Assembly: GCF_038502225.1 (NCBI RefSeq)
Contig: NC_091292.1
Coordinates: 51,247,444 to 51,311,443 of the forward strand
DNA length: 64,000 nucleotides
Source of the DNA: Cherax quadricarinatus
Lineage: Eukaryota > Arthropoda > Malacostraca > Decapoda > Parastacidae
Direction: 5' to 3'
In this document: piece after piece, positions 11,971 through 59,559 of the stretch
How positions within the stretch are numbered: the stretch's first letter is position 1
Layout of the letters: each line of letters starts with the position of its first letter
Made by a program: the position numbers and the translations under genes
Notes under the pieces: model-generated
Databases searched by the model: none
Told to the model about the DNA's origin: nothing
Seen by the model: the letters and a program-made list of their open reading frames with translations, nothing else

Positions 11971-12023
11971 CTTTGTATTGGACTGATGAAGCCACTGTGT
12001 GGCGAAACGTTTCCTGAATAAAG
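11971..12023 (+). ncRNA. Hammerhead ribozyme motif, type I
   Basis: Core CTGATGA at 11983-11989, helix II GCCAC-TGT-GTGGC and GAAAC at 12004-12008 followed by GTT as the NUH site. Helix I can form from GGA with TCC plus CTTTGT (11971-11976) with ATAAAG (12018-12023), separated by an internal loop. Helix III is only AC/GT, as in minimal hammerheads of retrozymes and Penelope-like elements, which usually cleave as dimers. All core bases are consensus. Confidence 0.75.
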
Positions 12024-12508
12024 ATTCCCATATGCTGCATAAGTGTCTCAATCTTCTACCTCCACATTCCTTGCCCATCGTTTCTTTGTGTACCAAATTG
12101 AGGTGTTGAATATTTGAGAGACGGACAAGGTGAAAACCAATTCGATATCCAGGTCAACGTTTTCCTGGTGATATCATAGTTCATCGAAAAGATACTCTGC
12201 CCCTCCTGCGCACTCTTTAATGTTGTCTTATTGGTTTGTTCCGCAGATGCCGCCGCCATGACAGTAGCAAGCAGCCTCGTCGTATGAATATTCTGTCCTT
12301 CGCTTCTCTTGTCTTGCATCTTCATTAGTAGAATAAGCAGCTTAATTTCTTTGGTTCAATACATCTATTTCAGCTGTATTTCTGTTTGTCTTCAGTACTA
12401 TGCTTCGCTGTGAGCTATTGCTGTTCCTCATTTACTGTGCTCTGTTACATGTGTAATTTCACAGTGGTGTGTTACTTAGTGTCCATACTACCTCAGAAAA
12501 GTATTATG

Positions 12509-14014
12509 CTACATGTGTCGCACGCTACATGTGTCGCACGCTACATGTGTCGCACACTACATGTGTCGCACACTACATGTGTCGCACGCTACATGTGTGG
12601 CACGCTACATGTGTCGCACGCTACATGCGTCGCACACTACACGTGTCGCACGCTACATGTGTGGCACACTACATGTGTCGCACACTACATGTGTCGCACG
12701 CTACATGTGTCGCACACTACATGTGTCGCACACTACATGTGTCGCACACTACATGTGTCGCACGCTACATGTGTCGCACACTACATGTGTCGCACACTAC
12801 ATGTGTCGCACACTACATGTGTCGCACACTACATGTGTCGCACACTACATGTGTCGCACGCTACATGTGTGGCACACTACATGTGTCGCACACTACATGT
12901 GTCGCACACTACATGTGTCGCACACTACATGTGTCGCACACTACATGTGTCGCACGCTACATGTGTGGCACACTACATGTGTCGCACACTACATGTGTCG
13001 CACACTACATGTGTCGCACGCTACATGTGTCGCACACTACATGTGTCGCACACTACATGTGTCGCACACTACATGTGTCGCACACTACATGTGTCGCACA
13101 CTACATGTGTCGCACGCTACATGTGTCGCACACTACATGTGTCGCACACTACATGTGTCGCACACTACATGTGTCGCACGCTACATGTGTCGCACACTAC
13201 ATGTGTCGCACACTACATGTGTCGCACACTACATGTGTCGCACACTACATGTGTCGCACACTACATGTGTCGCACGCTACATGTGTCGCACGCTACGTGT
13301 GTCGCACACTACATGTGTCGCACACTACATGTGTCGCACACTACATGTGTCGCACACTACATGTGTCGCACGCTACATGTGTCGCACACTACATGTGTCG
13401 CACACTACATGTGTCGCACACTACATGTGTCGCACACTACATGTGTCGCACACTACATGTGTCGCACACTACATGTGTCGTACGCTACATGTGTCGCACA
13501 CTACATGTGTCGCACACTACATGTGTCGCACACTACATGTGTCGCACGCTACATGTGTCGCACACTACATGTGTCGCACACTACATGTGTCGCACGCTAC
13601 ATGTGTCGCACACTACATGTGTCGCACACTACATGTGTCGCACGCTACATGTGTCGCACGCTACATGTGTCGCACACTACATGTGTCGCACACTACATGT
13701 GTCGCACACTACATGTGTCGCACACTACATGTGTCGCACGCTACATGTGTCGCACACTACATGTGTCGCACACTACATGTGTCGCACGCTACATGTGTCG
13801 CACGCTACATGTGTCGCACACTACATGTGTCGCACGCTACATGTGTCGCACACTACATGTGTCGCACACTACATGTGTCGCACACTACATGTGTCGCACA
13901 CTACATGTGTCGCACGCTACATGTGTCGCACACTACATGTGTCGCACACTACATGTGTCGCACGCTACATGTGTCGCACACTACATGTGTCGCACACTAC
14001 ATGTGTCGCACGCT
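12509..14014 (+). repeat. 16-bp satellite, about 94 units
   Basis: The unit is CTACATGTGTCGCACA, with A or G at the last position and rare other changes (GTGTGG, CATGCG, CTACG). Because 16 is 1 modulo 3 and the unit has no stop, all three forward frames stay open for about 500 codons. I regard those frames as by-products of the array. Confidence 0.97.
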
Positions 14015-14640: not shown

Positions 14641-14656
14641 GTCAGACAATATTGTT

Positions 14657-15060
14657 TTAAATTAGACACATGTGCAACACTTGGGGTATCTTTAATGAGG
14701 AAACGTTTCGCCACACAGTGGCTTCATCAGTCCATACAAAGAAGAATGGTGAAGAACAGGAGGAGTTTCAGTTAGTCAGTCCCTCAGAATAGAGTCGAAG
14801 TAATCAGTCCATCAATCTTGAAAAGATTACAGCATATGCGCTAAGTAGCTTATATACTGTAGACAGGTGAGGTGAAGTAGTCGTAGGTGGTATCACATTT
14901 GACCCATGTGGAAGTAGGTCATGCCCAAGGGTTGGGCAAGTGAAGAATTCCCTGTATTAAGATCCCAGGATGATGCTGTGTCAGACAGGAATGTAGATAA
15001 ATGGTTCAGAGAACCGACAAGTTGATAAGTTAGACATATGTGCAACACTTGGGTATATTC
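14657..15060 (-). mobile_element. Retrozyme-like tandem unit, locus 1 (368-bp period)
   Basis: On the reverse strand the tail motif (ACACATGTGTCTAATTTATCAACTTGTC family) occurs at about 15032 and again at 14664, 368 bp apart in the same orientation. Between them are a TATA box (reverse complement of 14849-14856) and, 108 nt downstream of it, a consensus hammerhead at 14741-14690. This is the layout described for animal retrozymes: direct repeats, a ribozyme in each, a promoter upstream and no coding capacity. The outer ribozyme copy is replaced by an inverted one at 15067. Confidence 0.6.
14690..14741 (-). ncRNA. Hammerhead ribozyme motif, type I
   Basis: Read on the reverse strand: CTTTGT, GGA, CTGATGA, helix II GCCAC-TGT-GTGGC, GAAAC, GTT, TCC, ATTAAAG. 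All conserved core bases are present, and helix I and helix II pair as in the 11971 copy. Confidence 0.77.
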
Positions 15061-15066
15061 ACCATT

Positions 15067-15110
15067 CTGATGAAGCCACTGTGTGGCGAAACGTTTCCTC
15101 AATAAAGATA
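15067..15110 (+). ncRNA. Hammerhead ribozyme motif at centre of an inverted repeat
   Basis: CTGATGA, GCCAC-TGT-GTGGC, GAAAC, GTTTCC. The flanks 15001-15056 and 15111-15168 are inverted copies of the family tail (ATGGTTCAGAGAACCGACAAG against its complement), so ribozyme and arms form one long fold-back. The 5' strand of helix I differs from the consensus (ACCATT rather than TATGGA), so the self-cleaving fold may be lost. Confidence 0.6.
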
Positions 15111-15179
15111 TCCAAGTGTTGTACATGTGTCTAATTTATCAACTTGTCGCTTCTCTGAACCATTTATCTACATTATTCT

Positions 15180-18100: not shown

Positions 18101-18860
18101 TATTATCAATCAAACACTTGGTGCAGAAGCGCAAAAGAGAATTGTCGACGGGAGCATAAGTATACATTACACCATATGTAGGAGACATTAAGAAGTACGT
18201 TGTGAAGGATTGCAAGAGCTTTGGAAACTAGATGTATTCTGGTTGCTGCACGATCCCAGAAAGGCATCCCTGGCTTAAAAAAAAGCACCCTGTACTGCAC
18301 TGCACACGATAGAACAGTGCAGAATATAGCATAACATTTTCATGGCGTAAGAATTCAAATGTCAAAAATCGCAATTTTTCAATAAAAATAACGAATTAGA
18401 TCATATGCAGTCCAAACTTAATTCAAACTTTCAATTACGGAACGTCAGTTTTAAATGTAAACTGAAGAGGAATAAACTTATATCAGAGAGAAAAATATGC
18501 CAAAATTCACACTGAGTTTGCAATCCCTTAAAGTTGCATTACCAAGTTATCAGCGTTGAAAGGTTAAGCCCATTCGATGGGCCACTTAGAAATTATCGCG
18601 TAACAAGTAATATTTCAATCCCAAAATCAATCTGAGCTTTTTTTTCAAAGAAAGACTTGTCAACGTTTAAGATGTAAGTTAATAATTAAGTTTTATCCAA
18701 GTTTTGAGCACGTAACATACATTTTTCTACAACAGTACTGGGCATATACATGTTAAGGGTGAATATCAGAAATGCTGAGTGACTGACAACCTCAAATCTA
18801 AATCTTCAAAGGTGATGGACTGATAACATCTTCACATAATTACTGCTCCTGCCTACTTTC
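15180..18860. other. No gene seen
   Basis: About 3.7 kb of AT-rich sequence with short frames only and no recognisable protein, SINE or ribozyme motif. Confidence 0.45.
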
Positions 18861-18865
18861 TGTGC

Positions 18866-18910
18866 TCGACTGAAGAGGTCTACTGTGTAGGCGAAACTTT
18901 CCAACATGTT
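18866..18910 (+). ncRNA. Degenerate hammerhead motif
   Basis: CTGAAGA (core T-to-A), helix II GTCTAC-TGT-GTAGGC (six pairs with one wobble) and GAAAC at 18893-18897. Helix II pairing is kept although its bases differ from other copies. Confidence 0.5.
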
Positions 18911-19140
18911 AAGGGTACTGTTACCAAGATACGTGGAGGTGAGGGGAAATATAAAATACCTTGTCTAGGGGTATTTATAAAAGTTATTTAAAAATAAACT
19001 ACAGGCCACAGGAAGACCAAACACTATCAGTGGCGCCTTCAGTCTCCTGGCAAAAATGCAACCATTTCTGAACTCTCCACCACTCAGACCTTTTAGCACA
19101 AAAAAAAAAAAAATGCCATTCACGTAAGCATAAAACAAAC

Positions 19141-20424: not shown

Positions 20425-23060
20425 CGATGACCGTGATGGTTCATTAGGTGACTCTCTTACCTTCACATAAGATGACCGTGATGGTTCATTAGGTGACTCT
20501 CTTACCTTCACATAAGATGACCGTGATGGTTTATTAGGTGACTCTCTTACCTTCACATAAGATGACCGTGATGGTTCATTAGGTGACTCTCTTACCTTCA
20601 CATAAGATGACCGTGATGGTTCGTTAGGCGACTCTCTTACCTTCACATAGGATGACCGTGATGGTTCATTAGGTGACTCTCTTACCTTCACATAAGATGA
20701 CCGTGATGGTTCATTAGGTTACTCTCTTACCACCTTCACATAAGATGACCGTGATGGTTCATTAGGTGACTCTCTTACCTTCACATAAGATGACCGTGAT
20801 GGTTCATTAGGTGACTCTCTTACCTTCACATAAGATGACCGTGATGGTTCATTAGGTGACTCTCTTACCTTCACATAAGATGACCGTGATGGTTCATTAG
20901 GTGACTCTCTTACCTTCACATAAGATGACCGTGATGGTTCATTAGGTGACTCTCTTACCTTCACATAAGATGACCGTGATGGTTCATTAGGTGACTCTCT
21001 TACCTTCACATAAGATGACCGTGATGGTTCGTTAGGCGACTCTCTTACCTTCACATAGGATGACCGTGATGGTTCATTAGGTGACTCTCTTACCTTCACA
21101 TAAGATGACCATGATGGTTCATTAGGTGACTCTCTTACCTTCACATAAGATGACCATGATGGATCATTAGGTGACTCTCTTACCTTGGCATAAGATGACC
21201 GTGATGGTTCATTAGGTGACTCTCTTACCACCTTCACATAAGATGACCGTGATGGTTCGTTAGGCGACTCTCTTACCTTCACATAAGATGACCATGATGG
21301 TTCATTAGGCGACTCTCTTACCTTCACATAAGATGACCATGATGGTTCATTAGGTGACTCTCTTACCTTCACATAAGATGACCATGATGGTTCATTAGGT
21401 GACTCTCTTACCTTCACATAAGATGACCATGATGGTTCATTAGGTGACTCTCTTACCTTGGCATAAGATGACCATGATGGTTCATTAGGTGACTCTCTTA
21501 CCACCTTCACATAAGATGACCGTGATGGTTCATTAGGTGACTCTCTTACCACCTTCACATAAGATGACCATGATGGTTCATTAGGTGACTCTCTTACCAC
21601 CTTCACATAAGATGACCATGATGGTTCATTAGGCGACTCTCTTACCTTCACATAAGATGACCGTGATGGTTCGTTAGGCGACTCTCTTACCTTCACATAG
21701 GATGACCGTGATGGTTCATTAGGTGACTCTCTTACCTTCACATAAGACGACCATGATGGTTCATTAGGTGACTCTCTTACCTTCACATAAGATGACCATG
21801 ATGGTTCATTAGGTGACTCTCTTACCTTGGCATAAGATGACCGTGATGGTTCATTAGGTGACTCTCTTACCACCTTCACATAAGATGACCGTGATGGTTC
21901 GTTAGGCGACTCTCTTACCTTCACATAAGATGACCATGATGGTTCATTAGGCGACTCTCTTACCTTCACATAAGATGACCATGATGGTTCATTAGGTGAC
22001 TCTCTTACCTTCACATAAGATGACCATGATGGTTCATTAGGTGACTCTCTTACCTTGGCATAAGATGACCATGATGGTTCATTAGGTGACTCTCTTACCA
22101 CCTTCACATAAGATGACCATGATGGTTCATTAGGTGACTCTCTTACCACCTTCACATAAGATGACCATGATGGTTCATTAGGCGACTCTCTTACCTTCAC
22201 ATAAGATGACCGTGATGGTTCGTTAGGCGACTCTCTTACCTTCACATAAGATGACCGTGATGGTTCATTAGGTGACTCTCTTACCTTCACATAAGATGAC
22301 CATGATGGTTCATTAGGCGACTCTCTTACCTTCACATAAGATGACCATGATGGTTCATTAGGCGACTCTCTTACCTTCACATAAGATGATGACCGTGATG
22401 GTTCATTAGGTGACTCTCTTACCTTCACATAAGATGACCATGATGGTTCATTAGGCGACTCTCTTACCTTCACATAAGATGACCGTGATGGTTCATTAGG
22501 TGACTCTCTTACCTTCACATAAGATGACCATGATGGTTCATTAGGCGACTCTCTTACCTTCACATAAGATGACCGTGATGGTTCATTAGGTGACTCTCTT
22601 ACCTTCACATAAGATGATGACCGTGATGGTTCATTAGGCGACTCTCTTACCTTCACATAAGATGACCATGATGGTTCATTAGGCGACTCTCTTACCTTCA
22701 CATAAGATGACCGTGATGGTTCATTAGGTGACTCTCTTACCTTCACATAAGATGACCATGATGGTTCATTAGGCGACTCTCTTACCTTCACATAAGATGA
22801 CCGTGATGGTTCATTAGGTGACTCTCTTACCTTCACATAAGATGACCATGATGGTTCATTAGGCGACTCTCTTACCTTCACATAAGATGACCGTGATGGT
22901 TCATTAGGTGACTCTCTTACCTTCACATAAGATGATGACCGTGATGGTTCATTAGGCGACTCTCTTACCTTCACATAAGATGATGACCGTGATGGTTCAT
23001 TAGGTGACTCTCTTACCTTCACATAAGATGATGACCGTGATGGTTCATTAGGTGACTCCC
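20425..23060 (-). repeat. 45-bp satellite with long reverse-strand frame
   Basis: About 58 units of 45 bp. On the reverse strand each encodes 15 residues of the form VKVRESPNEPSRSSY. Length variants are exactly +3 bp (extra Val before RES, or extra Ser in SSS), so the frame from 23106 is open for 795 codons. One unit carries a stop at about 20719-20721 (GTGACTC to GTTACTC), after which the same frame continues to 20422. Arg/Trp variants (CCG against CCA on the forward strand) alternate in places, giving a 90-bp higher-order unit. No protein family is recognised. It may be a satellite or a low-complexity coding repeat. Confidence 0.9.
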
Positions 23061-23109
23061 TCTTACCTCTACCATCCAAAGAATTTTTAATCGCATATTC
23101 AACCATTTC

Positions 23110-23539
23110 AAACCAGTTTTATTTGATCTTATTTCTCGTTAGGGAATGTATGTTTTTTTGGACATTATGTACAGTATTCACAAGTCATACTGGCAGTTTT
23201 CTTCGTTACCTATTCAAACAAAATGTGTGTTATTTAAGGCAATTGTATCTACTGAAAGAAAATATAAGACCTTTACTGCATCACTAATACTGTATTTTCA
23301 TACTTACAGGTAATGTTAAATGTAACAGATTTGGGATCACTTATAGCAAAGTTCTTCGTAAATTGTTCACAAGGGTCTTCTTGTTTGCTAGAGACACATA
23401 AAGCAGGTTATGTCATCTCATCAGTTCTGACAAATTAAAGGAATAGTTCTGGATTACTTCAAGGAAGTCTTTTGACTCTAGACTACTCAAAGAATTCAAA
23501 TCAATTTGGCTAAAATTGGCTAAGTTTACTGCATTTTCA
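23110..23539. other. No gene seen
   Basis: AT-rich flank between the satellite and the palindrome. Confidence 0.5.
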
Positions 23540-23617
23540 TGTTAGGTAAGACACATATGCAACAGTTAGGTATCTTTATAAAGATACCTAACTGTTGCAT
23601 ATGTGTCTTACCTAACA
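23540..23617. repeat. 78-bp perfect palindrome of hammerhead-family tail
   Basis: Two 39-bp arms are exact reverse complements with no spacer (centre between 23578 and 23579). Each arm is the sequence that follows the ribozyme in family members at 52.8 kb (TAAAGATACCTAACTGT...CATATGTGTCTTA). The ribozyme itself is absent. Confidence 0.95.
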
Positions 23618-23906
23618 ATCTGTCGGTATTTTATACCATTTTAATGTTCACTGCATTTTCATATCTTGAAGCCCGACAATTTCTTCCCCCCCCAAAGTCT
23701 TCGTTGGCCGATTTGTAAGGTGAGGGAGGTGTCGATATTGCTCGCCTAACATCAGATTTTTATTTCCTTCAAAAATTGCTTACCTACAGATTCAGTGTCA
23801 GTTTTTGCAGATTTATCATAATTTTTGACGCAAGAGCTCAAGTTTTCTCGCAGTCCATCCCCATTCTCATTGTTTCCATCAGTGGGGAATAATTTACGTC
23901 CTTGTA

Positions 23907-25800: not shown

Positions 25801-26142
25801 TGACATTCTTCTTCATAACTGGAGAAGGAAACTTGTGAATGTTCTTATGACACTCAAAACCGCCAGTAACATGGACAAGTTCCTAGTCTTCCTTATTATT
25901 TTTGTTATTATCACACTGGCCGATTCCCACCAAGGCAGGGTGGCCCGAAAAAGAACTTTCACCATCACTCCATCACTGTCTTGCCAGAAGGGTGCTTTAC
26001 ACTACAATTTTTAAACTGCAACATTAACACCCCTCCTTCAGAGTGCAGACACTGTACTTCCCATCTCCAGGACTCAAGTCCGGCCTGCCGGTTTCCCTGA
26101 ACCCCTTCATAAATGTTACTTTGCTCACACTCCAACAGCACG

Positions 26143-27078
26143 TCAAGTATTAAAAACCATTTGTCTCCATTCACTCCTATCAAACACGCTCACGCATGCC
26201 CGTTGGAAGTCCAAGCCCCTCGCACACAAAACCTCCTTTACCCCCTCCCTCCAACCTTTCCTAGGCCAACCCCTACCCCGCCTTCCTTCCACTACAGACT
26301 GATACACTCTTGAAGTCATTCTGTTTCGCTCCATTCTCTCTACATGTCCGAACCACCTCAACAACCCTTCCTCAGCCCTATGGACAACAGTTTTGGTAAT
26401 CCCGCACCTCCTCCTAACTTCCAAACTACGAATTCTCTGCATTATATTCACACCACACTGCCCTCAGACATGACATCTCCACTGCCTCCAGCCTTCTCCT
26501 CGCTGCAACATCCATCACCCATGCTTCACACCCACATAAGAGCGTTGGTAAAACTGTACTCTCATACATTCCCCTCTTTGCCTCTAAGGACAAAGTTCTT
26601 TGTCTCCACAGACCAGTAAGTGCACCGCTCACCCTTTTTTCCACATCAATTCTATGATTCACCTCATCTTTCATAGACCCATCCGCTGACACATCCACTC
26701 CCAAATATCTGAATACATTCACCTGCTCCATACTCTCTCCCTCCAATCTGATATCCAATCTTTCATCACCTAATCTTTTTATCCTCATAACCTTACTCTT
26801 TCCAGTATTCACTTTTAACTTTCTTCTTTTGCATACCCTACCAAATTCATCCACCAACCTCTGCAACTTCTCTTCAGAATCTCCCAAGAGCACAGTGTCA
26901 TCAGCAAAGAGCAACTGTGACAACTCTCACTTTATGTGTGATTCTTTATCTTTTAACTCCACGCCTCTTGCCAAGACCCTCGCATTTACTTCTCTTACAA
27001 CCCCATCTATAAATATATTAAACAACCACGGTGACATCACACATCCTTGTCTAAGGCCTACTTTTACTGGGAAATAAT
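26143..27078 (-). pseudogene. LINE RT C-terminal part
   Basis: Reverse-strand blocks 26923-26426 (LLFADDTVLLGDSEE, FRYLGVDVSADGS) and 26451-26143 (NIMQRIRSLEVRRRCGI, RWFGHVERMERNRM) are collinear with the intact LINE protein but lie in different frames, because of a small deletion near 26455. A stop precedes residue LSQ at about 26926. The catalytic FADD is present, but the protein cannot be made whole. Confidence 0.85.
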
Positions 27079-27083
27079 CTCCC
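27079..27083. other. 5-bp target-site duplication, left
   Basis: CTCCC, repeated at 34482-34486. Comparison with LINE copies 1 and 2 shows the uninterrupted site is single there, which confirms the LTR element boundaries. Confidence 0.9.
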
Positions 27084-28162: not shown

Positions 28163-28164
28163 AG

Positions 28165-28182
28165 TGGCGACCTTGCCAGGAT
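28165..28182 (+). promoter_or_regulatory. Primer-binding site
   Basis: TGGCGACCTTGCCAGGA begins two bases after the LTR. The TGG start and GGCGACC pattern resemble binding sites for a tRNA-Arg 3' end. The exact tRNA is inferred. Confidence 0.65.
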
Positions 28183-28732
28183 CAACTCTACTGACTCAAG
28201 ATTCAACTCCATCTCGAATCTACCATTGGAACTACAGCGCTGCATACCACAGACGGTTACCACCAGCCATGAGTAATCATTCTCTATGGTAGGACTACAG
28301 TACAGGTATTTAAAAGATTTGGTGATTGTTATAGTCTCAATTTATTGTAAGTCAAGTCAAGGCAAGAATACTAGTTAATTCTGCCATCTATTTTTGTGTG
28401 AGCTTGAAACACTTTGGAGGATTAGACTCTAGGGACCCGAGATTTTCCAGTGACAATTTGTTTCATTGAGCTCTTTATTATATCAAGGGAACTGTCATAG
28501 GACACTCTTGATTTGTTGGTGAGAAGATTGGATGGTCAAGTGACCCCATTCTACTTACCGTTTGCTCGGAGCCGGCATAGAACCCTTCATTTTAATTAAT
28601 ACATATTGTTTAATTGAAGTAGGGATCGAGCCCTCTGGTTTATTTACAGTTTGAGCAGAGCAGGAATTGAACCCTCTGTTTTCTTTAATACCCATTTCAT
28701 TTCCCCTGACAGCTTAAGTTATTCTTGCAAGT

Positions 28733-44200: not shown

Positions 44201-44810
44201 CCTTCCTTTGCTCTAACTCTCTCAGATACTCCAGATTTAATCCCATTTATTTCCCCCCACTGAAACTCTCCTACCCCCTTCAGCTTTGTTTCGCTTAGGG
44301 CCAGGACATCCAACTTCTTTTCATTCATAACATCAGCAATCATCTGTTTCTTGTCATCCGCACTACATCCACGCACATTTAAGCAACCCAGTTTTATAAA
44401 GTTTTTCTTCTTCTCTTTTTTAGTAATTGTATACAGGAGAAGGGGTTACTAGCCCATTGCTCCCGGCATTTTAGTCGCCTCATACGACACGCATGGCTTA
44501 CGGAGGAAAGATTCTTTTCCACTTCCCCATGGACAATAGAAGAAATAAAAAGAACAAGAGCTATTTAGAAAAAGGAGAAAAACCTAGATGTATGTATATA
44601 TATATATGCATGTGCGTGTCTGTGAAGTGTGACCAAAGTGTAAGTAGGAGTAGCAAGATATCCCTGTTATCTTAGCGTGTTTATGAGACAGAAAAAGAAA
44701 CCAGCAATCCTACCATCATGCAAAACAATTACAGGTTTTTGTTTCACAGTCATCTGGCAGGACGGTAGTACTTCCCTGGGTGGTTGCTGTCTACCAACCT
44801 ACTACTGCAT
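41210..44810 (-). mobile_element. Full-length RTE-like LINE, copy 2
   Basis: A 3.6-kb reverse-strand element with an intact EN-RT frame, an approximately 430-bp 5' leader, a 250-bp 3' UTR (GGGCCACCCTGCCTTGGTGG region) and an A-rich tail (AATAAAAAAATAAAAATAAA type). It is flanked by an exact 12-bp duplication. Features point to a recent, full-length retrotransposition. Confidence 0.92.
41470..44376 (-). CDS. LINE endonuclease-reverse transcriptase, intact frame
   Basis: 968 codons without a stop. APE endonuclease domain about 1-235 (SETKLKG with Glu near 29, VVGDLNAKVG, LLDYVLV, SDHFLVVA). Linker rich in Lys/Arg, about 250-430. RT about 450-780: GGKAAGIDGIKIEM, YKGKGEKRECKNYRGISLLS, catalytic Asp in AFMDLEKAYDRV near 607, GLRQGCVMSPWLF near 660-675 and FADDTVLL near 714. 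C-terminal region RWFGHVERMERNRM and RRGRGRPRKGW near 890-925. All catalytic residues I can check are present, so the protein could be active. The 44376 start is a GTG codon. The frame is open upstream to about 44440 without any ATG, so the true start is unresolved: spliced, frameshifted or non-AUG. Confidence 0.9.
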   Translation of the reverse strand: MRGCSADDKKQMIADVMNEKKLDVLALSETKLKGVGEFQWGEINGIKSGVSERVRAKEGVAVMLNDQLWKEKREYECVNSRIMWIKVKVGCEKWVIISVYAPGEERNAEERERFWEMLSECIGAFEPSERVIVVGDLNAKVGETFREGVVGKFGVPGVNDNGSPLIELCIERGLVIGNTYFKKKRINKYTRYDVGRNDSSLLDYVLVDKRLLSRLQDVHVYRGATDISDHFLVVATLRVKGRWDTRRIEASGKREVKVYKLKEEAVRVRYKQLLEDRWANESIGNGVEEVWGRFKNVVLECSAEVCGYRKVGAGGKRSDWWNDDVKRVVREKKLAYEKFLQSRSDARREEYMEKKREVKRVVKQCKKRANERVGEMLSTNFVENKKKFWSEINKLRKPREQMDLSVKNRRGELLNGELEVLGRWKEYFEELLNVDEDREAVISCIGQGGITSCRSEEEPVVSVGEVREAVGKMKGGKAAGIDGIKIEMLKAGGDIVLEWLVQLFNKCMEEGKVPRDWQRACIVPLYKGKGEKRECKNYRGISLLSVPGKVYGRVIIERIKSKTENRIADEQGGFRKGRGCVDQVFTVKHISEQYLDKAKEVFVAFMDLEKAYDRVDRGAMWQMLQVYGVGGRLLKAVKSFYEDSEAQVRVCRKEGNFFPVKVGLRQGCVMSPWLFNIFIDGVVREVNARVLARGVELKDKESHTKWELSQLLFADDTVLLGDSEEKLQRLVDEFGRVCKRRKLKVNTGKSKVMRITKRLGDERLNIRLEGESMEEVNVFRYLGVDVSADGSMKDEVNHRIDEGKRVSGALRSLWRQRTLSLEAKRGMYESIVLPTLLYGCEAWVMNVAARRRLEAVEMSCLRAMCGVNIMQRIRSLEVRRRCGITKTVVQRAEEGLLRWFGHVERMERNRMTSRVYQSVVEGRRGRGRPRKGWREGVKEVFCARGLDFQQACVSVFDRSEWRQMVFNT

Positions 44811-45500: not shown

Positions 45501-47125
45501 CGCACTCTGCCATTAGTGATATAAAGCTACACTCTGCCTTCAGTGACATAAAGCTACACTCTGCCTTCAGTGATATAAAGCTACACTCTGCCTTCAGTGA
45601 TATAAAGCTACACTCTGCCTTCAGTGATATAAAGCTACACTCTGCCTTCAGTGACATAAAGCTACACTCTGCCTTCAGTGATATAAAGCTACACTCTGCC
45701 TTCAGTGATATAAAGCTACACTCTGCCTTCAGTGACATAAAGCTACACTCTGCCTTCAGTGATATAAAGCTACACTCTGCCTTCAGTGATATAAAGCTAC
45801 ACTCTGCCTTCAGTGACATAAAGCTACACTCTGCCTTCAGTGACATAAAGCTACACTCTGCCTTCAGTGATATAAAGCTACACTCTGCCTTCAGTGATAT
45901 AAAGCTACACTCTGCCTTCAGTGACATAAAGCTACACTCTGCCTTCAGTGATATAAAGCTACACTCTGCCTTCAGTGATATAAAGCTACACTCTGCCTTC
46001 AGTGACATAAAGCTACACTCTGCCTTCAGTGACATAAAGCTACACTCTGCGTTCAGTGATATAAAGCTACACTCTGCCTTCAGTGATATAAAGCTACACT
46101 CTGCCTTCAGTGATATAAAGCTACACTCTGCCTTCAGTGATATAAAGCTACACTCTGCCTTCAGTGATATAAAGCTACACTCTGCCTTCAGTGATATAAA
46201 GCTACATTCTGCCTTCAGTGATATAAAGCTACACTCTGCCTTCAGTGATATAAAGCTACACTCTGCCATTAGTGATATAAAGCTACACTCTGCCTTCAGT
46301 GATATAAAGCTACACTCTGCCTTCAGTGACATAAAGTTACACTCTGCCTTCAGTGACATAAAGCTACACTCTGCCTTCAGTGACATAAAGCTACACTCTG
46401 CCTTCAGTGATATAAAGCTACACTCTGCCTTCAGTGATATAAAGCTACACTCTGCCTTCAGTGATATAAAGCTACACTCTGCCTTCAGTGATATAAAGCT
46501 ACACTCTGCCTTCAGTGATATAAAGCTACACTCTGCCTTCAGTGATATAAAGCTACACTCTGCCTTCAGTGATATAAAGCTACACTCTGCCTTCAGTGAT
46601 ATAAAGCTACACTCTGCCTTCAGTGATATAAAGCTACACTCTGCCTTCAGTGACATAAAGCTACACTCTGCCTTCAGTGATATAAAGCTACACTCTGCCT
46701 TCAGTGACATAAAGTTACACTCTGCCTTCAGTGACATAAAGTTACACTCTGCCTTCAGTGACATAAAGTTACACTCTGCCTTCAGTGACATAAAGTTACA
46801 CTCTGCCTTCAGTGACATAAAGTTACACTCTGCCTTCAGTGATATAAAGCTACACTCTGCCTTCAGTGATATAAAGCTACACTCTGCCTTCAGTGATATA
46901 AAGTTACACTCTGCCTTCAGTGATATAAAGTTACACTCTGCCTTCAGTGATATAAAGCTACACTCTGCCTTCAGTGATATAAAGCTACACTCTGCCTTCA
47001 GTGATATAAAGCTACACTCTGCCTTCAGTGATATAAAGCTACACTCTGCCTTCAGTGATATAAAGCTACACTCTGCCTTCAGTGATATAAAGCTACACTC
47101 TGCCTTCAGTGACATAAAGCTACAC
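45501..47125 (+). repeat. 27-bp satellite
   Basis: About 60 units of the ACTCTGCCTTCAGTGATATAAAGCTAC type. It shares its TATAA.GCTACAC end with the 18-bp unit before it, so one probably derives from the other. As 27 is divisible by 3, both strands keep one open frame of nearly 680 codons. GATATAA/GACATAA and GCTAC/GTTAC variants cluster. Confidence 0.95.
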
Positions 47126-48383
47126 TGCCATTAGTGATATAAAGCTACACCCTGCCTTCAGTAATATAAAGCTACACTGCCATTAGTGATATAAAGCTAC
47201 ATCCTGCCTTCAGTGATATAAAGCTACACTGCCATTAGTGATATAAAGCTACACCCTGCCTTCAGTGATATAAAGCTACACTGCCATTAGTGATATAAAG
47301 CTACATCCTGCCTTCAGTGATATAAAGCTACACTGCCATTAGTGATATAAAGCTACACCCTGCCTTCAGTGATATAAAGCTACACTGCCATTAGTGATAT
47401 AAAGCTACATCCTGCCTTCAGTGATATAAAGCTACACTGCCATTAGTGATATAAAGCTACACTCTGCCTTCAGTGATATAAAGCTACACTCTGCCTTCAG
47501 TGATATAAAGCTACACTGCCATTAGTGATATAAAGCTACACTCTGCCTTCAGTGATATAAAGCTACACTCTGCCTTCAGTGATATAAAGCTACACTGCCA
47601 TTAGTGATATAAAGCTACACTCTGCCTTCAGTGATATAAAGCTACACTCTGCCTTCAGTGATATAAAGCTACACTGCCATTAGTGATATAAAGCTACACT
47701 CTGCCTTCAGTGATATAAAGCTACACTGCCATTAGTGATATAAAGCTACACTCTGCCTTCAGTGATATAAAGCTACACTGCCATTAGTGATATAAAGCTA
47801 CACTCTGCCTTCAGTGATATAAAGCTACACTGCCATTAGTGATATAAAGCTACACCCTGCCTTCAGTGATATAAAGCTACACTGCCATTAGTGATATAAA
47901 GCTACACTCTGCCTTCAGTGATATAAAGCTACACTCTGCCTTCAGTGATATAAAGGTACACTGCCATTAGTGATATAAAGCTACACTCTGCCTTCAGTGA
48001 TATAAAGCTACACTGCCATTAGTGATATAAAGCTACACTCTGCCTTCAGTGATATAAAGCTACACTGCCATTAGTGATATAAAGCTACACCCTGCCTTCA
48101 GTGATATAAAGCTACACTGCCATTAGTGATATAAAGCTACACTCTGCCTTCAGTGATATAAAGCTACACTGCCATTAGTGATATAAAGCTACACTCTGCC
48201 TTCAGTGATATAAAGCTACACTGCCATTAGTGATATAAAGCTACACTCTGCCTTCAGTGATATAAAGCTACACTGCCATTAGTGATATAAAGCTACACTC
48301 TGCCTTCAGTGATATAAAGCTACACCCTGCCTTCAGTGATATAAAGCTACACTCTGCCTTCAGTGATATAAAGCTACATTCCG
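47126..48383 (+). repeat. Higher-order satellite, alternating 25- and 27-bp units
   Basis: A 25-bp unit ACTGCCATTAGTGATATAAAGCTAC alternates with one or two 27-bp units, giving 52- and 79-bp higher-order repeats. The 2-bp shorter unit destroys the open frames of the preceding block. Confidence 0.94.
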
Positions 48384-48689
48384 CCCTATGTGAAAAAAAA
48401 AAATCATTCTACTACTGTTTTGAAAGAAAGTTGTTCTTCAAAACGGAAAATTTCACTCCAGTCTGATTTCGATGATATAAGAACATAAGAAAGGAGGAAC
48501 ACTGCAGTAGGCCTATTGACCCATACTTGGCAGGTCCTGTACAAATCTAATGCACAAATCTAATATAATCCACTGGATAACAACATATTTAGGTAACAAG
48601 ATCAGGTAACAAAGTTTAAGCAACTAAAATTTAGGTAATAAAAAAAACTGGATATCAGTATAGAGAAAATGAATGTGCTCAGAAAGCTA
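48384..48689. other. No gene seen
   Basis: Short AT-rich spacer between satellite and LINE fragment. Confidence 0.5.
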
Positions 48690-52318: not shown

Positions 52319-52371
52319 TTCTTAAGTCACTTATATGGGTGTACATGAATGGAATATAATACCAACAAGAT

Positions 52372-52440
52372 GAAGAATTACACACATGTGCAACATCTCG
52401 GTATCTTTATTTGCATATGTTGCACATGTGTCTAATCTTC
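52372..52440. repeat. Imperfect palindrome of hammerhead-family tail
   Basis: GAAGAATTACACACATGTGCAACAT and ATGTTGCACATGTGTCTAATCTTC face each other across 20 bp. This is the same tail-to-tail arrangement as at 23540. Confidence 0.8.
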
Positions 52441-52556
52441 ACATATGTAGGTACTGAGACTGGAGCGGACAAATGGGTAATACATCACAGCCAACCTGAC
52501 GGCAGAGGCAAGATGAAAGCTGAGGTATCTTGCTATCTCATGTCTTTCTATGAAAA

Positions 52557-52875
52557 ATAAGACATATGTGCAAAAGTTAGGCATTTTTATTCCGAAACGT
52601 TTCGCCTACACAGCAGGCTTGTTCAGTCGAACACAGAGGAGGCAGCAGAAGCAGTAGAGATGGAACAATGTTTCAGAATATGGAGCAAAACTCTTCTCCA
52701 GGCTGAGGGACTTACACCCTTGAAACAACGTCAAGGACTGGTTCAGTCGTCTTGACATCTCTACTGCTTCTGCTGCTTCCTCTGTACTCGACTGAAGAAG
52801 CTTGTTATAGAGGCAAATCGTTCGGAATAAAGATACCTAACTGTGGCACATGTGTCTTATCAACTTGTCGGTATT
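52557..52875. mobile_element. Fold-back of two hammerhead repeats
   Basis: Reverse-strand motif at 52583-52641 (CTGAACA, GCCTG...TAGGC, GAAACGTTT) and forward motif at 52781-52832 (CTGAAGA, damaged helix II, GGCAAATCGTTC) sit in inverted arms. Arm sequences (GAGGCAGCAGAAGCAGTAGAGATG and complement) pair across a spacer of about 100 bp. Both cores have mutations. Confidence 0.65.
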
Positions 52876-52889
52876 GTATTCCATTATCA

Positions 52890-54150
52890 TAGTCATATTT
52901 TTCTATGCTTCTCAAAGCTGCTAGATACGTTTTTGTTGTGATTTAGTTATACTTATTTATCACAGGTATATTTCCTTATAGGTTAGTTATATTTCAAGGA
53001 CCAATCGAGTTATGTTCTGTTGTTTCTAAATTCTTCTTGAACGTTTAAAGAAACAGAGAAAGAAGGTTCTCTTCCCTTGTGTTTCTATAATTAGCTTATA
53101 ACTAGTTAAGCATGGCGATTATAATTTTATATGGTAGGAAGAGAAACAGTTATAATCTTCTCTAAATTTTCATTAGGTCTTATGTGAATTTTCTTTTCTC
53201 ATAACTTTTTTTTCCTAATCCTTGTCATTTCTAATCGTCATTGTAATTTTTCTTACATACGTCATTCTTCCATTCAGTGTATTCTTATCCTATTTTGGCT
53301 GTTCTTCTATTTTAATGTACAGTACTTACTCACTATATATATTTATTTAAACTTTCTATATATCCCATACACGGTTTGTCTTATTGCTTTTCTCTATCAT
53401 ATTTCACCTAATAAGGTTTCTTTTAAAGTTTTCATCTATGTCATTTAGCCACTATTGCTACGTTTTACTTCATTCTTTGACTGCTTAGCCTAGTATTATT
53501 TTCTTCGCTCAGCTTCCCACTTGATATAACGTCTCATACAGAGGAACCTTGCAATATTCCCATCACCCTCTGTAAGCTCACATTCATGCTATCCGAGCGT
53601 CTACTTACAGCAGCAGAACCAGATGACGTCTATATGCACATACCTCAGTGCTTTCATCCTACAGCTCTAATCTTCTTCTTCCTCGTTTTTCAATCTGTTC
53701 CTCGGGTCAAGATGCGTCTTCCCATCATGCTCCGTGAACTCACATTCACGTTATCCGAGTTCCAGCTAACATGAGCTAGGCCAGATGACGTCCATGTCTC
53801 TGTGCTTCAATGTTTTTTTCCTGCAGAACTAATCTCAATCTTCAGCTTCGTCTTACACGTTTTTCAGTCTGTTCCTCGGGCCAAGATACTTCTCATTATA
53901 GCACTATTGCTATTACCAGTACTACTCGGGAAGATGCAAGCGCTCATAGTTAACAAATAAATCGTGTGGTACTTACAAACTCTAAACTTGTTTTCAGCTC
54001 ACCAGCCTGGCTTTAGAACGGGGATTTTCTATCATGGAACCCTCACTCCGTCTCGAGAAATACATTCGGAACGTCTTCACTTCGAACCATTCAGTCACTG
54101 CTCTTTAATTTGAATCAAGAAAAGCTTACGACACCCTTGGCATAACAATA
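52890..54150. other. No gene; degenerate duplication 53578-53900
   Basis: AT-rich. Two diverged copies of a 162-176-bp segment (TCACATTCA.G.TATCCGAG ... TCTGTTCCTCGGG) start at 53578 and 53740. Confidence 0.6.
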
Positions 54151-54157
54151 TTTAGTC

Positions 54158-54770
54158 CGTACATGAATGGTATACAGTACCGACAAGATGAAAATTTAGA
54201 CATGTAAAACATCTGCGTATCTTTACTTTAGACGTTTCGCCATCCAGTATATAGTTCTTCTGTCTTCCATTCATTTCTTTAAATTTGATTTGATAAAGCC
54301 ACTGGATGGCGAAACGTTTACAATAAAGATACCCAGATGTTGCACATGTGTCACAGTTTTCATCTTGTCGGTATTGTATACCATTCATGTACAACTTGTC
54401 AGACACTGCAACATCATGGAATCTTGGTTCAGAGGACACCTGCATAACTTTTTTCACGGCTACTACTATTACAACTAACCCATCCCTTGGGTATGACCTA
54501 CTCCCCTTGGGAAATCCGCCATACCAGTGATTATGCCCTCGTCTGCTGCCCATCCCCTTCCACCTGACGCCAGTATATAAACACCAGCCTTCTTGCCTGT
54601 GCTCCAGAATCTTCACGACTACGGTGCTCGTCACACCAACTCCAAGGTTGATTACTTCATCTTTTGTATATAGTTCTTCTGTCTTCCATTCATATCCTTG
54701 AATTTGTATTGATAAAGCCACTGGATGGCGAAACTTCTACAATAAAGAAACCCAGATAATGAAAATTTAA
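54158..54770 (+). mobile_element. Retrozyme-like tandem unit, subfamily B (419-bp period)
   Basis: Forward hammerhead-like motifs with GAAAC at 54311 and 54730, 419 bp apart in direct orientation. Between them lie the family tail (CAACTTGTC...), a TATA box (TATATAA at 54574-54580) and a leader ending before the second ribozyme. A reverse-strand half copy at 54170-54260 makes the left end a fold-back. Helix II is GCCA-CTGGA-TGGC. The core TTGATAA deviates from CTGATGA. Confidence 0.6.
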
Positions 54771-55095
54771 ACGCATTTGCAACAACATTTAGTCCCAAGA
54801 ATATTCATTAGAGCTACAACGCAAACTAACACTTTTTACCAAAGATTTTCAGTCAGAAAGGCATTACAGTGCTCAAGTAAATATTAAGGCTACATCCTCA
54901 GTATTACCACGTTCCTAATTTTGCTATTTCTTGTGCAGTCCCACCCCGTCGGCTCGTTGCAACCACTCTCCATTACGCCATCGATCGTCCTGGCAACTGG
55001 GTCACCTCATTTAGTTCCAGATTTTCTATTGTTAAAACAGATTTTATGACTATCGTTCGACACTGTCATTTCACAGCCTATTTTACATCTGAATG

Positions 55096-55705: not shown

Positions 55706-55721
55706 GCTGCCTTCTTCAGCT

Positions 55722-55775
55722 GACTGAAGAAGCCACTCGTGGCGAAACGTTTCCTTTAATAAATACCCTGAACTA
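55722..55775 (+). ncRNA. Hammerhead motif variant
   Basis: CTGAAGA, helix II GCCA-CTCG-TGGC and GAAACGTTTCC. One core change (T to A). Helix II pairing is intact with a 4-nt loop. Confidence 0.55.
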
Positions 55776-55849
55776 TACATAAGGATCTTTTTCCAAACCT
55801 TCTTTATGATTGTCGATAGTCACTGACATCTTACATCAAGACGAAAATT

Positions 55850-56100
55850 AGACACATGTGCAACATCTGGATATCTTTATTGTAGACGTTTCGCCATCCA
55901 GTAGGTTTATCAAATTATATACAAAAGATAAGGTAATCAGTCCCTCAGCCTTTTAGTTGGTGTGAAGAGCACCGTAGTCGTGAAGATTCTGGAGCACAGC
56001 CAAGAAGGCTGGTGCTTATATACTATCGTGGGGTGGAAAGGGACGGGTAGCAGACGAGGGCATTTATTCTCTGATATTCCACTATAATAAAGACATTATC
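55850..56100 (-). mobile_element. Single hammerhead unit, subfamily B
   Basis: The reverse strand carries TATA-like TATATAAGCACC (near 56015), a leader matching 54580-54700 and a ribozyme-like block at 55915-55872 (helix II about CCA/TGG, GAAACGTC), then the ACACATGTGTCTAAT tail. The core reads TTGATAA. Confidence 0.55.
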
Positions 56101-56404: not shown

Positions 56405-56892
56405 AATGAATGGTTCAGAGAACCGACAAGTTGATAAATTAGACACATGTGCAATACCTGGGTATCTTTAATGAGGAAACGTTTCGTCACACATTGGCCT
56501 CACCAGTCCATACAAAGGAGAATGGTGAAGAACAGAAGGAGTTTGAGGTAATCAGTCCCTCAGCCTCGAGTCGATGTAACCAGTCCATCAGTCTTGAAAA
56601 GAATACAGCATATGCGCGAAGTGGCTTATATACCGTAGGCAGGAGAGGTGCAGCAGTCGTAGGTGGTATCACATTTGTTCAATGTGGAAGTAGGTCGTGC
56701 CCAAGATTTAGGCAAGTGAAGAATTCTCTTTATTAAGATCCCAAGATGTTGCAGTGTCTGACAGGAATGTAGATGAATGATTCAGAGGACCGACAAGTTG
56801 ATAAATTAAACACATGTGCAACACTTGGTTATCTATAATGAAGAAACGTTTCGCCACACACCATTCTCCTTTGTATGGACTGATGAAGCCAC
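56405..56892 (-). mobile_element. Retrozyme-like tandem unit, locus 2 (367-bp period)
   Basis: Tail motifs at 56441 and 56808 lie 367 bp apart on the reverse strand. The TATA box (reverse complement of 56625-56632) is 108 nt upstream of the ribozyme at 56517-56466. A second partial ribozyme (GGCGAAACGTTTC) lies at 56838-56860. Layout, spacing and promoter position equal locus 1 at 14657-15060, although the two differ by substitutions. An inverted forward half ribozyme closes the unit at 56869-56892. Confidence 0.65.
56466..56517 (-). ncRNA. Hammerhead motif, type I (one core change)
   Basis: Reverse strand: CTTTGT, GGA, CTGGTGA (A to G in core), helix II weakened (GCCAA...GTGAC), GAAACGTT, TCC, ATTAAAG. 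Helix I pairing is retained. Confidence 0.55.
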
Positions 56893-59229
56893 AGTACTCA
56901 CCTAGTTGTGGTTGCAAGGGTCAAGTCACAGCTCCTGGCCCCGCCTATTCACTGGGCGCTGCTGGGTCACTCTCCCTGAACCATGAGCTTTATCATACCT
57001 CTGCTTAGAGCTATGTATGGATCCTGCCTCCACTACATCACTTCCCAAACTATTCCACTTCCTGACTACTCTGTGACTGAAGAAATACTTCCTAACATCC
57101 CTGTGATTCATCTGTGTCTTCAACTTCCAACTGTGTCCCCTTGATGCTGTGTCCCATCTCTGGAACATTCTGTCTCTGTCCACCTTGTCAATTTCTCTCA
57201 GTATTTTATATGTCGTTATCATATCCCCCCTATCTCTCCTGTCCTCCAGTGTCGTCAGGTCGATTTCCTTTAACCTCTCCTCATAGGACATACCCGTTAG
57301 CTCTGGGACTAGTCTTGTTGCAAACCTTTGCACTTTCTCTAGTTTCTTTACGTGCTTGGCTAGGTGTGGGTTCCAAACTGGTGCCGCATACTCCAATATG
57401 CAGTGTACAGAGTCCTGAACGATTCCTTATTAAGATGGCGGAATGCTGTACTGAAGGTTTGCTAGGCGCCCATATGCTGCAGCAGTTATTTGGTTGATGT
57501 GCGCCTCAGGAGATGTGCCTGGTGTTATACTCACCTCAAGATCGTTTTCCTTGAGTGAGGTTTGTAGCCTGTAGCCCCCTAGACTGTACTCCGTCTGCGG
57601 TCTTCTTTGCCCTTCCCCAATCTTCATGACTTTGCACTTGGTGGGGTTGAACTCCAGGAGCTAATTGCTGGACCAGGCCTGGAGCCTGTCCAGATCCTTT
57701 ACTAGTTCTGCCTGGTCCTCGTCCGATAAATTCTTCTCATCAACTTCACATCATCTGCAAACAGGGACACTTCGGAGTCTAGTCATTCCGCCATGTCGTT
57801 CACGAATACCAGAAACAGCACCGGTCCTAGGACTGACCCCTGTGGAATCCCACTCGTCACAGGAGCCGACTCTGACCCCTCACCTCGTACCATGACTCGC
57901 TGCTGTCTTCCTGACAGGTATTCCATGATCCATTGTAGTGCCTTTCCTGTTATCCCTGCCTGGTCCTCCAGTTTTTGCACTAATCTCTTGTGTGGAACTC
58001 TGTCAAACCCCTTCTTACAGTTTAAGAAAATGCAATCTACCCACCCCTCTTTCTCTTGCCTTGCTGCTGTCACCCTGTCATAGAACTCTAGTAGGTTTGT
58101 GACACAGGATTTCCAGTCCCTGAAACTGTGTTGGCTGTTGTTAAGTTCATTTCTTTCTAGGTGTTCCACCACTCTTTTTCTGATAATCTTCTCCATAACT
58201 CTGCATACTATACATGTCAGTGACACTGGTCTATAGTTTAGTGCTTCTTGTCTGTCTCCTTTTTTAAAAATTGGGATTGCATTTGCTGTCTTCCATACCT
58301 CAGGTAATCTCCGTTTCGATAGATGTGTTGAATATTGTTGTTAGGGGCACACATAGCGCCTCTGCACAATCTCTCAGGACCCATGGAGAGATGTTATCCG
58401 ACCCCATCGCCTTTGAGGTGCCTAGCTCGCTCAGCAGCCTCTTCACTTCTTCCTCGGTTGTATGTATTGTGTCCAACGCTTACTGGTGTACCCCACCTCT
58501 CCATCTTTCTGGAGTCCCTTCTGTCTCTTCTGTGAACACTTCTTTGAATCTCATCTTGAGCTCCTCGCATACTTCTCGGTCGTTTCTTGTGATCCATCTC
58601 CCTTCCTTAGCCTGATTACTTGGTCCTTGACTGTTGCTTTCCTCCTGATGTGGCTGTACAATAGCTTCGGGTCAGATTTGGCTTTCGCTGCTATATAATT
58701 TTCATATTGTCGTTGGACCTCCTTTCTTATCTGGGCACACTTGGTTTTGGCTTCCCTGCACCTCTGGGTGAACTACGGGCTCACCCTGGCTTTTTCATTA
58801 TTCCTGTTACCCTTGGGTACAAACCTCTCCTCAGCTTCCTTGCATATTGTTGTCATGTATTCCATCATCTCGTTTACTAACTTCTCTGCCAGTTCTCTGT
58901 CCCACTGAACCCCGTTCAGGAAGTTCTTTATTCCCGCATAGTCCCCCTTCTTGTAGTTTGGCTTTATTCGTCTGGCTTTTCCTGCTCCCCTCTGCATCCC
59001 CCCCCACTTGTAACTCGACCGTGTATTCAAATCTTAAAACCACATGATCACTGGCCCCAAGGGGTCTTTCATATGTGATGTCCTCAATATCTGCACTACT
59101 CAAGGTGAATACTAGGTCCAGTCTCGCTGGTTCATCCTCTTCTCTCTCTCTGGTAGTGTCCCTTACGTGTTGGTACATGAAGTTTTCCAGTACCACATAC
59201 TCTTGCCTTGGCCTCCTGCTATTATGTTC
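56893..59229 (-). mobile_element. CR1/Jockey-like LINE, 5'-truncated
   Basis: Reverse-strand order is endonuclease C-terminus, RT, thumb, then a short 3' UTR ending ...GGTGAGTAC at about 56894. The same 3' end occurs at 8506. The insertion interrupts a hammerhead repeat. I could not identify a clear target-site duplication at the junctions. Confidence 0.85.
56926..59220 (-). pseudogene. LINE EN-RT polyprotein remnants
   Basis: Block 59220-58831: RLDLVFTLS, ERPLGASDHVVLRFEY, the endonuclease end with SDH. Block 58226-57783: VMEKIIRKRVVEHLE, FRDWKSCVTNLLEFYD, motif A IFLNCKKGFDRVPHK with the catalytic Asp changed to Asn, and SGIPQGSVLGPVLFLVFVNDM, then a stop. The downstream LFADDVKL follows the stop. 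Block 57396-56926: MEYAAPVWNPH, YEERLKEIDLTTLEDRRDRGDMI and HRDVRKYFFSHRVV, the C-terminal region. Several stops and shifts. Non-functional. Confidence 0.85.
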
Positions 59230-59559
59230 TGTGTGGTGAAACATTTCCTCATTAAAGATACCCAAGTGTTGCACATGTCTAATTTATCAACAGATACTAC
59301 TGTCCAAAGTGAATTTTGGTTTAACCCAACAACCTCAAATAGCATAAATACTTTTGACAGCAATAAATATTTTTAATAAGGTTCACATTCATAAAGCAGC
59401 AGGTGGTACAGTGATTATGTTAACAAAGAACTGCATACCAGAAATTCGTGAGCATAATGTAATAGGATACGACACTATTCGTATAAATCCAAGCAAATAA
59501 AAGCAACACAGTTATATTCCTCGTACAACAGCGTCCTCGCAAACAAAGTCAAAGGCAAT

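Follow-up and report, generated by a model that had tools for sequence, protein, structure and literature searches.

The window analysed here is a 64,000-nucleotide stretch of the genome of the decapod Cherax quadricarinatus (NC_091292.1, positions 51,247,444 to 51,311,443), and it is populated by insertions with the anatomy of Penelope-like elements (PLEs), some with and some without copies of a hammerhead ribozyme motif. Element E7 (11849–12068, plus strand) is bounded by 13-bp duplications CTACCTCCACATT at 11849–11861 and 12056–12068, and consists of an inverted tail on the left and a 5′-truncated direct pseudo-LTR (pLTR) with hammerhead A (11971–12023, plus). This copy pairs CTTTGT with ATAAAG and GGA with TCC in helix I, and has the core CTGATGA with an extra A, helix II GCCAC-TGT-GTGGC, GAAAC and GTT, with the predicted cut between 12011 and 12012. 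In element E1 (14658–15175, minus), a direct unit running from 15056 to 14658 on the minus strand adjoins a partial inverted copy on the plus strand (15067–15175) in a head-to-head arrangement. Hammerhead B (14687–14743, minus) has an intact core starting at 14730, a helix II of 5 bp, GGA/TCC in helix I and a predicted cut between 14702 and 14701; hammerhead C (15053–15110, plus) keeps core and helix II intact and has lost its helix I partner strand, the 5′-side strand in this copy at 15067. Element G (18748–18916, plus), with 13-bp duplications ACATGTTAAGGGT at 18748–18760 and 18904–18916, carries a hammerhead (18856–18912) with helix II GTCTAC/GTAGGC and without G16.2. The predicted cut site lies a few bases before the end of the element, which has neither pLTR end type.

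Two insertions, E5 (23528–23662) and E6 (52340–52437), are pairs of head-to-head pLTR ends, one arm tailed and the other not, with no hammerhead; E5 has the 13-bp duplication ACTGCATTTTCAT. Element H (36164–36680) combines a decayed inverted copy (36188–36248, minus) with a hammerhead (36609–36668, plus) whose helix II, GACTGC/GCAGAC, contains one A-A mismatch. In E4 (52545–52907) the hammerheads I (52582–52640, minus) and J (52778–52835, plus) are inverted relative to each other. E3 (54150–54795) has an inverted arm from 54248 to 54159 and a direct arm with the tandem hammerheads K (54275–54331) and M (54694–54750), both of which have a U3-A8 core; copy N (55845–56063, minus), which has TATATAAGC and the cut triplet GTC, belongs to the same U3-A8 subfamily. 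Hammerhead O (55710–55765, plus) reads CTGAAGA and GCCAC-TC-GTGGC, has two helix I pairs and represents a separate subfamily adjoining LINE-like sequence. Finally, E2 (56405–59291, minus) has a direct unit from 56860 to 56405 on the minus strand, with hammerhead F (56463–56519) and, at a distance of 367 nt, the broken hammerhead D at 56852, and an inverted arm (56859–56892 plus 59230–59291) that is split within helix II by a LINE insertion (56893–59229).

The motif in this window is real. The exact core CTGATGA-N(4–30)-GAAAC occurs four times against 0.37 expected, and three of the exact-core sites (11983 plus, 14730 minus and 15067 plus) have one 26-base string in common. Five sites passed a strict scan for CTGANGA, helix II ≥ 4 bp and GAAA, against an average of 0.18 over 100 shuffles; the scan demands C3 and G8, so that copies with U3-A8 are deliberately beyond its reach. 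CGTH is present as well at four of these sites, a combination seen in 0 of the 100 shuffles, and all four have a helix II of at least 4 bp. Core, helix II and three helix I pairs occur together only at 11983 plus and 14730 minus; the remaining, non-strict copies have changes in the core or the cut triplet. Minus-strand sites include 14730, 56506, 52625 and 55917. Twelve window copies were used to build a covariance model, which gave 17 matches at E ≤ 10: the 12 source sequences, one new decayed copy (36188–36248 minus, E 0.0014), three partial copies (54218 minus, E 0.17; 56830 minus, E 1.1; 59227 plus, E 2), all within BLAST-homologous repeat arms, and a site at 60271 minus (E 2.1) that we set aside as a likely chance match. 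The resulting 16 homologous sites agree with the roughly sixteen that a sequence-only reading of this DNA had proposed. Searches of viral contigs with five motif patterns and of prokaryote contigs with one gave 0 matches, which says little, these being the wrong organisms.

In the four strict copies GAAAC directly abuts GTT, and the helix III hairpin is absent. The sequence-only reading had proposed a search with the Rfam hammerhead model and took the absence of a match as counting against the motif; read literally, that absence is what was found, with 0 matches of the Rfam hammerhead models to the window at any threshold tried and the gathering threshold not reached. This silence may be explained by the published existence of PLE hammerheads that lack helix III. 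The same reading had expected helix II to keep pairing while its bases change, and this is borne out by the pair counts, in which the changes of helix II do not ignore pairing. Its claim of a perfect core at three copies holds for those at 11971 and 14690 (cores at 11983 plus and 14730 minus); the reassembled copy at 56880/59230 reads GAAAC-ATT and has G-U as its first helix II pair. In helix I, GGA/TCC is confirmed in hammerheads A and B, and the outer CTTT/AAAG part constitutes weak evidence, because AATAAAG is conserved even where the partner strand differs.

The hand alignment has 13 rows, leaving out the broken copies 56852 minus, 54238 minus and 36188 minus; the tool alignment has 12, being additionally without the LINE-split copy, and in it the helix II versions of 5 bp and 6 bp are out of register, as are rows G and J at helix I. 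Across the 12 rows, 78.8% of pair cells are paired against 71.3% after shuffling, and nine are changed on both sides against a shuffled mean of 4.1 (each reached in 0 of 500 shuffles), figures to be read with the caution that the rows are related copies, that the structure was derived from the same sequences and that neither control corrects for this. Slid versions of the pairing register all score below the true one. Pairs with a change on both sides (five; reached by 55 of 500 shuffles) and further pair types (392 of 500) are not clearly above chance, so that three of five measures of helix I and II pairing under substitution exceed the shuffles. Helix I pair 3 is GC in five of the 12 rows and CG in three, helix I pair 2 is GC in six and UA in one, and core pair 3-8 is CG in eight and UA in three; only 61% of helix I cells are paired. 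Between subfamilies with different helices I and II, the unpaired letters of the core stay the same.

The ends of the insertions point to PLEs. Opposed pLTR arms stand head to head in E1 through E6, with only an inverted tail in E7 and none in G. A tail of ~30 nt is found at one end only in six of the seven elements with both ends readable (E1, E2, E4, E5, E6 and E7), G being the exception; in those six, the two arms differ in their stopping points, one lying near GTGTCTTA/GTGTCTAAT and the second near ACCATTCAT. In E3 the long end is present and the other decayed, and the ends of H, N and O are not both readable. Target duplications of 13 bp are present at three of the 11 elements tested (E5, E7 and G). 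No duplication was found at H, N or O, and none that convinces at E2 or E6. Among 400 random position pairs in the window, matches of exactly 12–13 bp arose in two, of exactly 9 bp in 28 and of exactly 8 bp in 85, and 51 had a match of at least 13 bp, all but one of these of at least 17 bp, which probably reflect tandem arrays and repeats in the window. The 8-bp repeats of E1 (TGTGAGTC, 14636/15185) and E4 (TTTCTATG) are within chance. The E3 repeat ATTTAGTCC is 9 bp exact (14/15 bases when read leftwards) and flush with the tailed end, and the duplication scan returned an additional 11-bp match inside this element. TATATAA, promoter-like by its sequence, occurs in all four units examined (E1, E2, E3 and N). 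No PLE reverse transcriptase or GIY-YIG domain (Pfam) was detected in the 20 frames scanned, out of 487 with a length of 45 aa or more, and short copies would lack one.

We are confident, short of certainty, that the sites are pLTRs of several PLE subfamilies. They occur as short copies in which no reading frame was detected, and most of those in the window are relics. The sequence-only reading had offered minimal type I hammerheads of either PLEs or retrozymes. Its hammerhead and PLE leads are supported by the order of the core, the zero-loop helix III, the pair changes on both sides and the element anatomy; its retrozyme lead is not. A non-LTR retrozyme would be a short, tandemly repeated and non-autonomous unit that carries a canonical type I hammerhead and propagates as circular RNA of 170–400 nt, and several facts invite the comparison: the cut-to-cut spacing in E2 falls inside the ~170–400 nt given in the available text of PMC7229834, which names crustaceans among the animals with retrozyme-like repeats, and the circular fold of the E2 unit has a lower minimum free energy than 100 shuffles (z −2.7). 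On the other side, 58% of bases pair in that fold, the inverted tailed ends and the target duplications are in keeping with insertion in the PLE manner, and the window's only tandems are short ones with broken or imperfect hammerheads (367 nt in E2, with one broken; 418 nt in E3, with both imperfect). With no locus holding two intact hammerheads in tandem, 367-nt circles are unlikely to arise here, and the circular RNA of that size suggested earlier finds no support: its spacing joins the copy at 56852 minus, broken at an inverted junction, to the one at 56506 minus, damaged in core and helix II. The intact copies have no helix III hairpin, and for want of helix III we reject the retrozyme reading as very improbable.

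Some weight, though clearly the smaller share, goes to a pLTR stem-loop that is kept for another reason, such as reverse transcriptase binding, a role as ORF start region or 3′-end formation, and now has no catalytic role. For the Anolis PLE, the accessible part of PMC11167929 reports that hammerhead mutants leave in vitro insertion unchanged and that no RNA-seq reads with an end at that site of cleavage were detected; in the window, the downstream AATAAAG has changed less than the helix I strand that would pair with it. Such a stem-loop sits poorly with unpaired core letters that persist while helices I and II vary, and with a core pair 3-8 altered on both sides together in one subfamily. Chance or a simple-repeat artefact could appeal to the missing Rfam match, and is negligible given the four strict sites against none in the shuffles; the homologous repeats at several places already refute it.

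Under the PLE reading, a full unit runs from the TATATAA promoter-like box through a minimal type I hammerhead without helix III hairpin and AATAAAG to a 3′ end at a fixed position, where a tail of ~30 nt may follow. We infer promoter use, mobilisation in trans and cleavage as follows. A PLE reverse transcriptase/endonuclease supplied from another place in the genome would act on RNA from the pLTR promoter. The tailed end may arise when reverse transcription starts internally, and the head-to-head inverted pLTR may come from template switching or self-priming. Cleavage by the hammerhead would fall between GTT (or GTC) and helix I; it would probably take two motifs joined through ACGU:ACGU, or the help of the element protein.

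At 54291 plus, 54709 plus and 55917 minus, U3-A8 replaces the core pair C3-G8. Laboratory exchanges of this pair, U-A included, are reported to keep activity (Przybilski and Hammann 2007). It is conceivable, though doubtful, that this subfamily is a natural hammerhead lineage in which C3-G8 was exchanged with the ribozyme still active (the triplet in N is GUC), A rather than G supplying the general-acid 2′-OH. The literature matches listed hold no report of natural U3-A8 hammerheads, a weak test. Cleavage by this subfamily, if it occurs, would put the tolerance of the hammerhead core for change to a natural test. More generally, the Rfam hammerhead models miss the motif here, so such copies may go unannotated in crustacean genomes, and the locus suggests that pLTR anatomy (a tail at one end, an inverted arm, 13-bp duplications) can flag PLE relics without coding sequence.

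Decapods are described as carrying Penelope elements, with a mean of 2.3% in Astacidea, for example (PMC10454600, in the portion available); PLE hammerheads in decapods went unreported among the literature matches listed, again a weak test. Animal non-LTR retrozymes share the unit length and type I order of the window copies, but as described in the text available (PMC7229834) their hammerheads are of canonical type I and possess a helix III as well as loop contacts, whereas the helix III hairpin is not seen here. The Poseidon PLE of Anolis carolinensis, PAc, likewise has a hammerhead at the pLTR and the tail signature. As far as the accessible text of PMC11167929 goes, its frame starts at stem II, whereas the frame from the ATG of CTGATGA stops after 11 codons in hammerheads A and B; an equation of the distance from that ATG to the cut site with the 26 nt of Anolis was rejected, the Anolis start codon lying after G8. 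Penelope of Adineta vaga, as presented in the part of PMC3846280 available, shows the same head-to-head inverted pLTR, optional tail of ~31 bp at one end, TATA box and target duplications, the last being 8–10 bp there versus 13 bp at three elements here; its pLTRs measure ~193–218 bp versus a repeat unit of ~367 nt, and its coding part has no counterpart in the 20 of 487 frames scanned. Another close likeness is to the PLE minimal type I hammerheads (Cervera and de la Pena 2014; Lunse, Weinberg and Breaker 2017), to which the window subfamilies, one of them with U3-A8, are not traced individually in the published record as available to us. Core, stem I and stem II are the same, there are no non-conserved helix III nucleotides, and the copies are dispersed, sometimes tandem, and located in pLTRs. 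Minimal hammerheads without helix III are described from PLE pLTRs (PMC6155905; PMC7761336), and dispersed ones are already published by the thousand from animal genomes (PMC7761336), each according to the text available. The locus is thus an ordinary but clear case of this known kind.

The exact hammerhead core with a gap of 4–30 bases occurs four times in the window, against 0.37 expected, and three of these four sites share the same 26 bases; the fourth, at 35230, was picked up by neither our covariance model nor BLAST with the repeat units. When a strict scan required CTGANGA, four or more helix II pairs and GAAA, five sites were found (0.18 in shuffles); CGTH, the segment with the cut triplet, follows at four of the five and was seen in none of 100 shuffles. 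The covariance model was built from 12 window copies, so its recovery of those 12 is by construction; it added one new decayed copy (36188–36248, E 0.0014). Partial copies at 54218 (−), 56830 (−) and 59227 (+) scored E 0.17 to 2 and sit in arms homologous by BLAST, and a weak match at 60271 (E 2.1) is taken as chance. The sequence-only reading had proposed about sixteen sites in one family. As homologous sites, recognized by the model and the BLAST arms, they stand, but intact sites are far fewer: by the strict scan, only 11983 (+) and 14730 (−) have the core, helix II and three pairs of helix I all preserved.

Pairing was assessed over 104 cells of the named structure in a 12-row alignment with 500 shuffles. 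Paired cells amount to 78.8% (71.3% shuffled) and cells changed on both sides number nine (4.1 shuffled), with none of the 500 shuffles as high on either count; every slid version of the structure scored lower. Helix I holds four of these nine cells, core pair 3-8 three and helix II two. Two further measures were not helpful: 55 of 500 shuffles matched the count of pairs with both-side change (5 versus 3.1), and 392 of 500 matched that of further pair types. Permutation of distinct rows in a 13-row hand alignment gave P = 0.001 for helix II, in line with the proposal that its pairing is kept despite base changes, and P = 0.012 for the first four pairs of helix I, all pairing statistics here ignoring the kinship of the rows and scoring a structure read from the same copies. 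The outer CTTT/AAAG pairing of helix I that was proposed earlier is doubtful, since the conservation of AATAAAG extends to copies with a different partner.

A covariance-model search with the Rfam hammerhead families, named beforehand as a check, gave no match at any threshold used, either in the whole window (gathering threshold or E up to 10) or in three short segments around the copies at 14730 (−), 54709 (+) and 11983 (+). A likely reason is a helix III without a loop: GTT directly follows GAAAC, leaving two possible pairs. Excerpts of PMC6155905 and PMC7761336 describe hammerheads of Penelope-like elements (PLEs) as minimal versions without helix III or its non-conserved nucleotides, and the latter, citing 2014 and 2017 papers, adds that their cleavage may take place in dimers.

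C3 pairs with G8 in a solved structure of a hammerhead in pseudoknot form, and the 2'-OH of G8 is taken to be the general acid in the hammerhead (PMC11300833, in part). Changing C3 or G8 singly in an Anolis PLE abolished cleavage, and the double exchange restored it in part (PMC11167929, excerpted). Both sides of this pair are changed in three copies of one subfamily, K (54291, +) and M (54709, +) within element E3 and N (55917, −), where TTGATAA supplies U3 and A8; this is probably one inherited event. Whether these copies would cleave is uncertain, because all carry other damage: two mismatches at the helix I base in K, GAAAC-TTC in M, and in N a partly lost helix I with one pair of helix II also gone. 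Only this subfamily could surprise a specialist.

The two longest units, in the PLE-type insertions E1 (14658–15175) and E2 (56405–59291), are 88% identical over 399 bases, and each meets an inverted partial copy head to head. The same arrangement is seen in E3 (54150–54795), E4 (52545–52907), E5 (23528–23662) and E6 (52340–52437); E7 (11849–12068) is a truncated unit with only an inverted tail beside it. Six of the seven elements with both outer ends readable (E1, E2, E4, E5, E6 and E7) have one end of each of two types: a shorter one near GTGTCTTA or GTGTCTAAT, and a longer one that extends about 30 bases beyond this, to near ACCATTCAT. The exception, G, has neither pseudo-LTR (pLTR) end type, unlike the others; it (18761–18903) stops a few bases past the predicted cut site, directly at a 13-bp duplication. 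Target duplications of 13 bp surround E5, E7 and G. In E3 one end is of the long type and the opposite one is decayed, and the tailed end shows a flush 9-bp repeat (leftwards 14/15 bases); an 11-bp match inside E3, being contained in the arm, was set aside as a target duplication. Matches of 8 bp at E1 and E4 do not exceed chance (longest match of 8 in 85 of 400 random pairs). TATATAA is found upstream in all four units examined, and a LINE that includes reverse transcriptase (56893–59229) interrupts the inverted arm of E2 within helix II.

The window also holds other repeats. A 16-bp minisatellite (12509–14011, ~94 copies) lies between E7 and E1, a 45-bp minisatellite (20426–23068, ~58 copies) is largely open as a 799-aa minus-strand frame, and a 27-bp minisatellite (45503–48385, ~108 copies) adjoins an 18-bp array. 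A LINE at 41470–44445 (−) has an uninterrupted 991-aa frame with endonuclease and reverse transcriptase; it has a copy at 1–3139 (98.7% identity) and a fragment at 25973–27084 (96%). Among the best 120 of 209 matches, its protein reaches 55–56% identity; the few relatives bearing an organism name include Oratosquilla oratoria at 51%, Panulirus ornatus at 50% and a bacterial metagenome entry at 43%, which makes a malacostracan crustacean the probable host. A Gypsy-like element (27084–34481; LTRs ~27084–28162 and ~33401–34481, 96% identical) encodes integrase domains ahead of its reverse transcriptase and RNase H domains, a permuted arrangement known from Gmr1-like elements.

Transcripts from a pLTR promoter would include the hammerhead, and cleavage would fall after GTT, or after GTC in N. 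Cutting in the Anolis PLE required the element protein, and insertion in vitro did not depend on cutting (PMC11167929, in part). Judging by the copies present, the 367-nt circular RNA suggested earlier would not be expected from this locus, because the tandem hammerheads of E2 and E3 are damaged and the E1 transcript is expected to fold on itself, its arms being 91–96% complementary. The 367-nt spacing in E2 separates 56852 (−), its 5' half replaced by the inverted junction, from 56506 (−), with CTGGTGA (A6 changed) and two helix II mismatches; K and M in E3, 418 nt apart, are both imperfect.

Pfam was scanned with 20 of the 487 frames of at least 45 aa; five matched reverse transcriptase families, interpreted as belonging to LINE or Gypsy elements, and GIY-YIG was absent from all 20, hence the window copies are non-autonomous or truncated. 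The connection with a PLE enzyme is based on their anatomy. Decapod genomes are reported to contain Penelope elements, which average 2.3% in Astacidea and make up 5.18% in M. nipponense (PMC10454600, in excerpt). The published Penelope anatomy, as excerpted in PMC3846280, comprises an inverted pLTR, an optional 31-bp tail, a TATA box and short duplications, and the window insertions have the same anatomy. Together, the sites form a clear collection of relic PLE pLTRs bearing hammerheads of the minimal kind already known.
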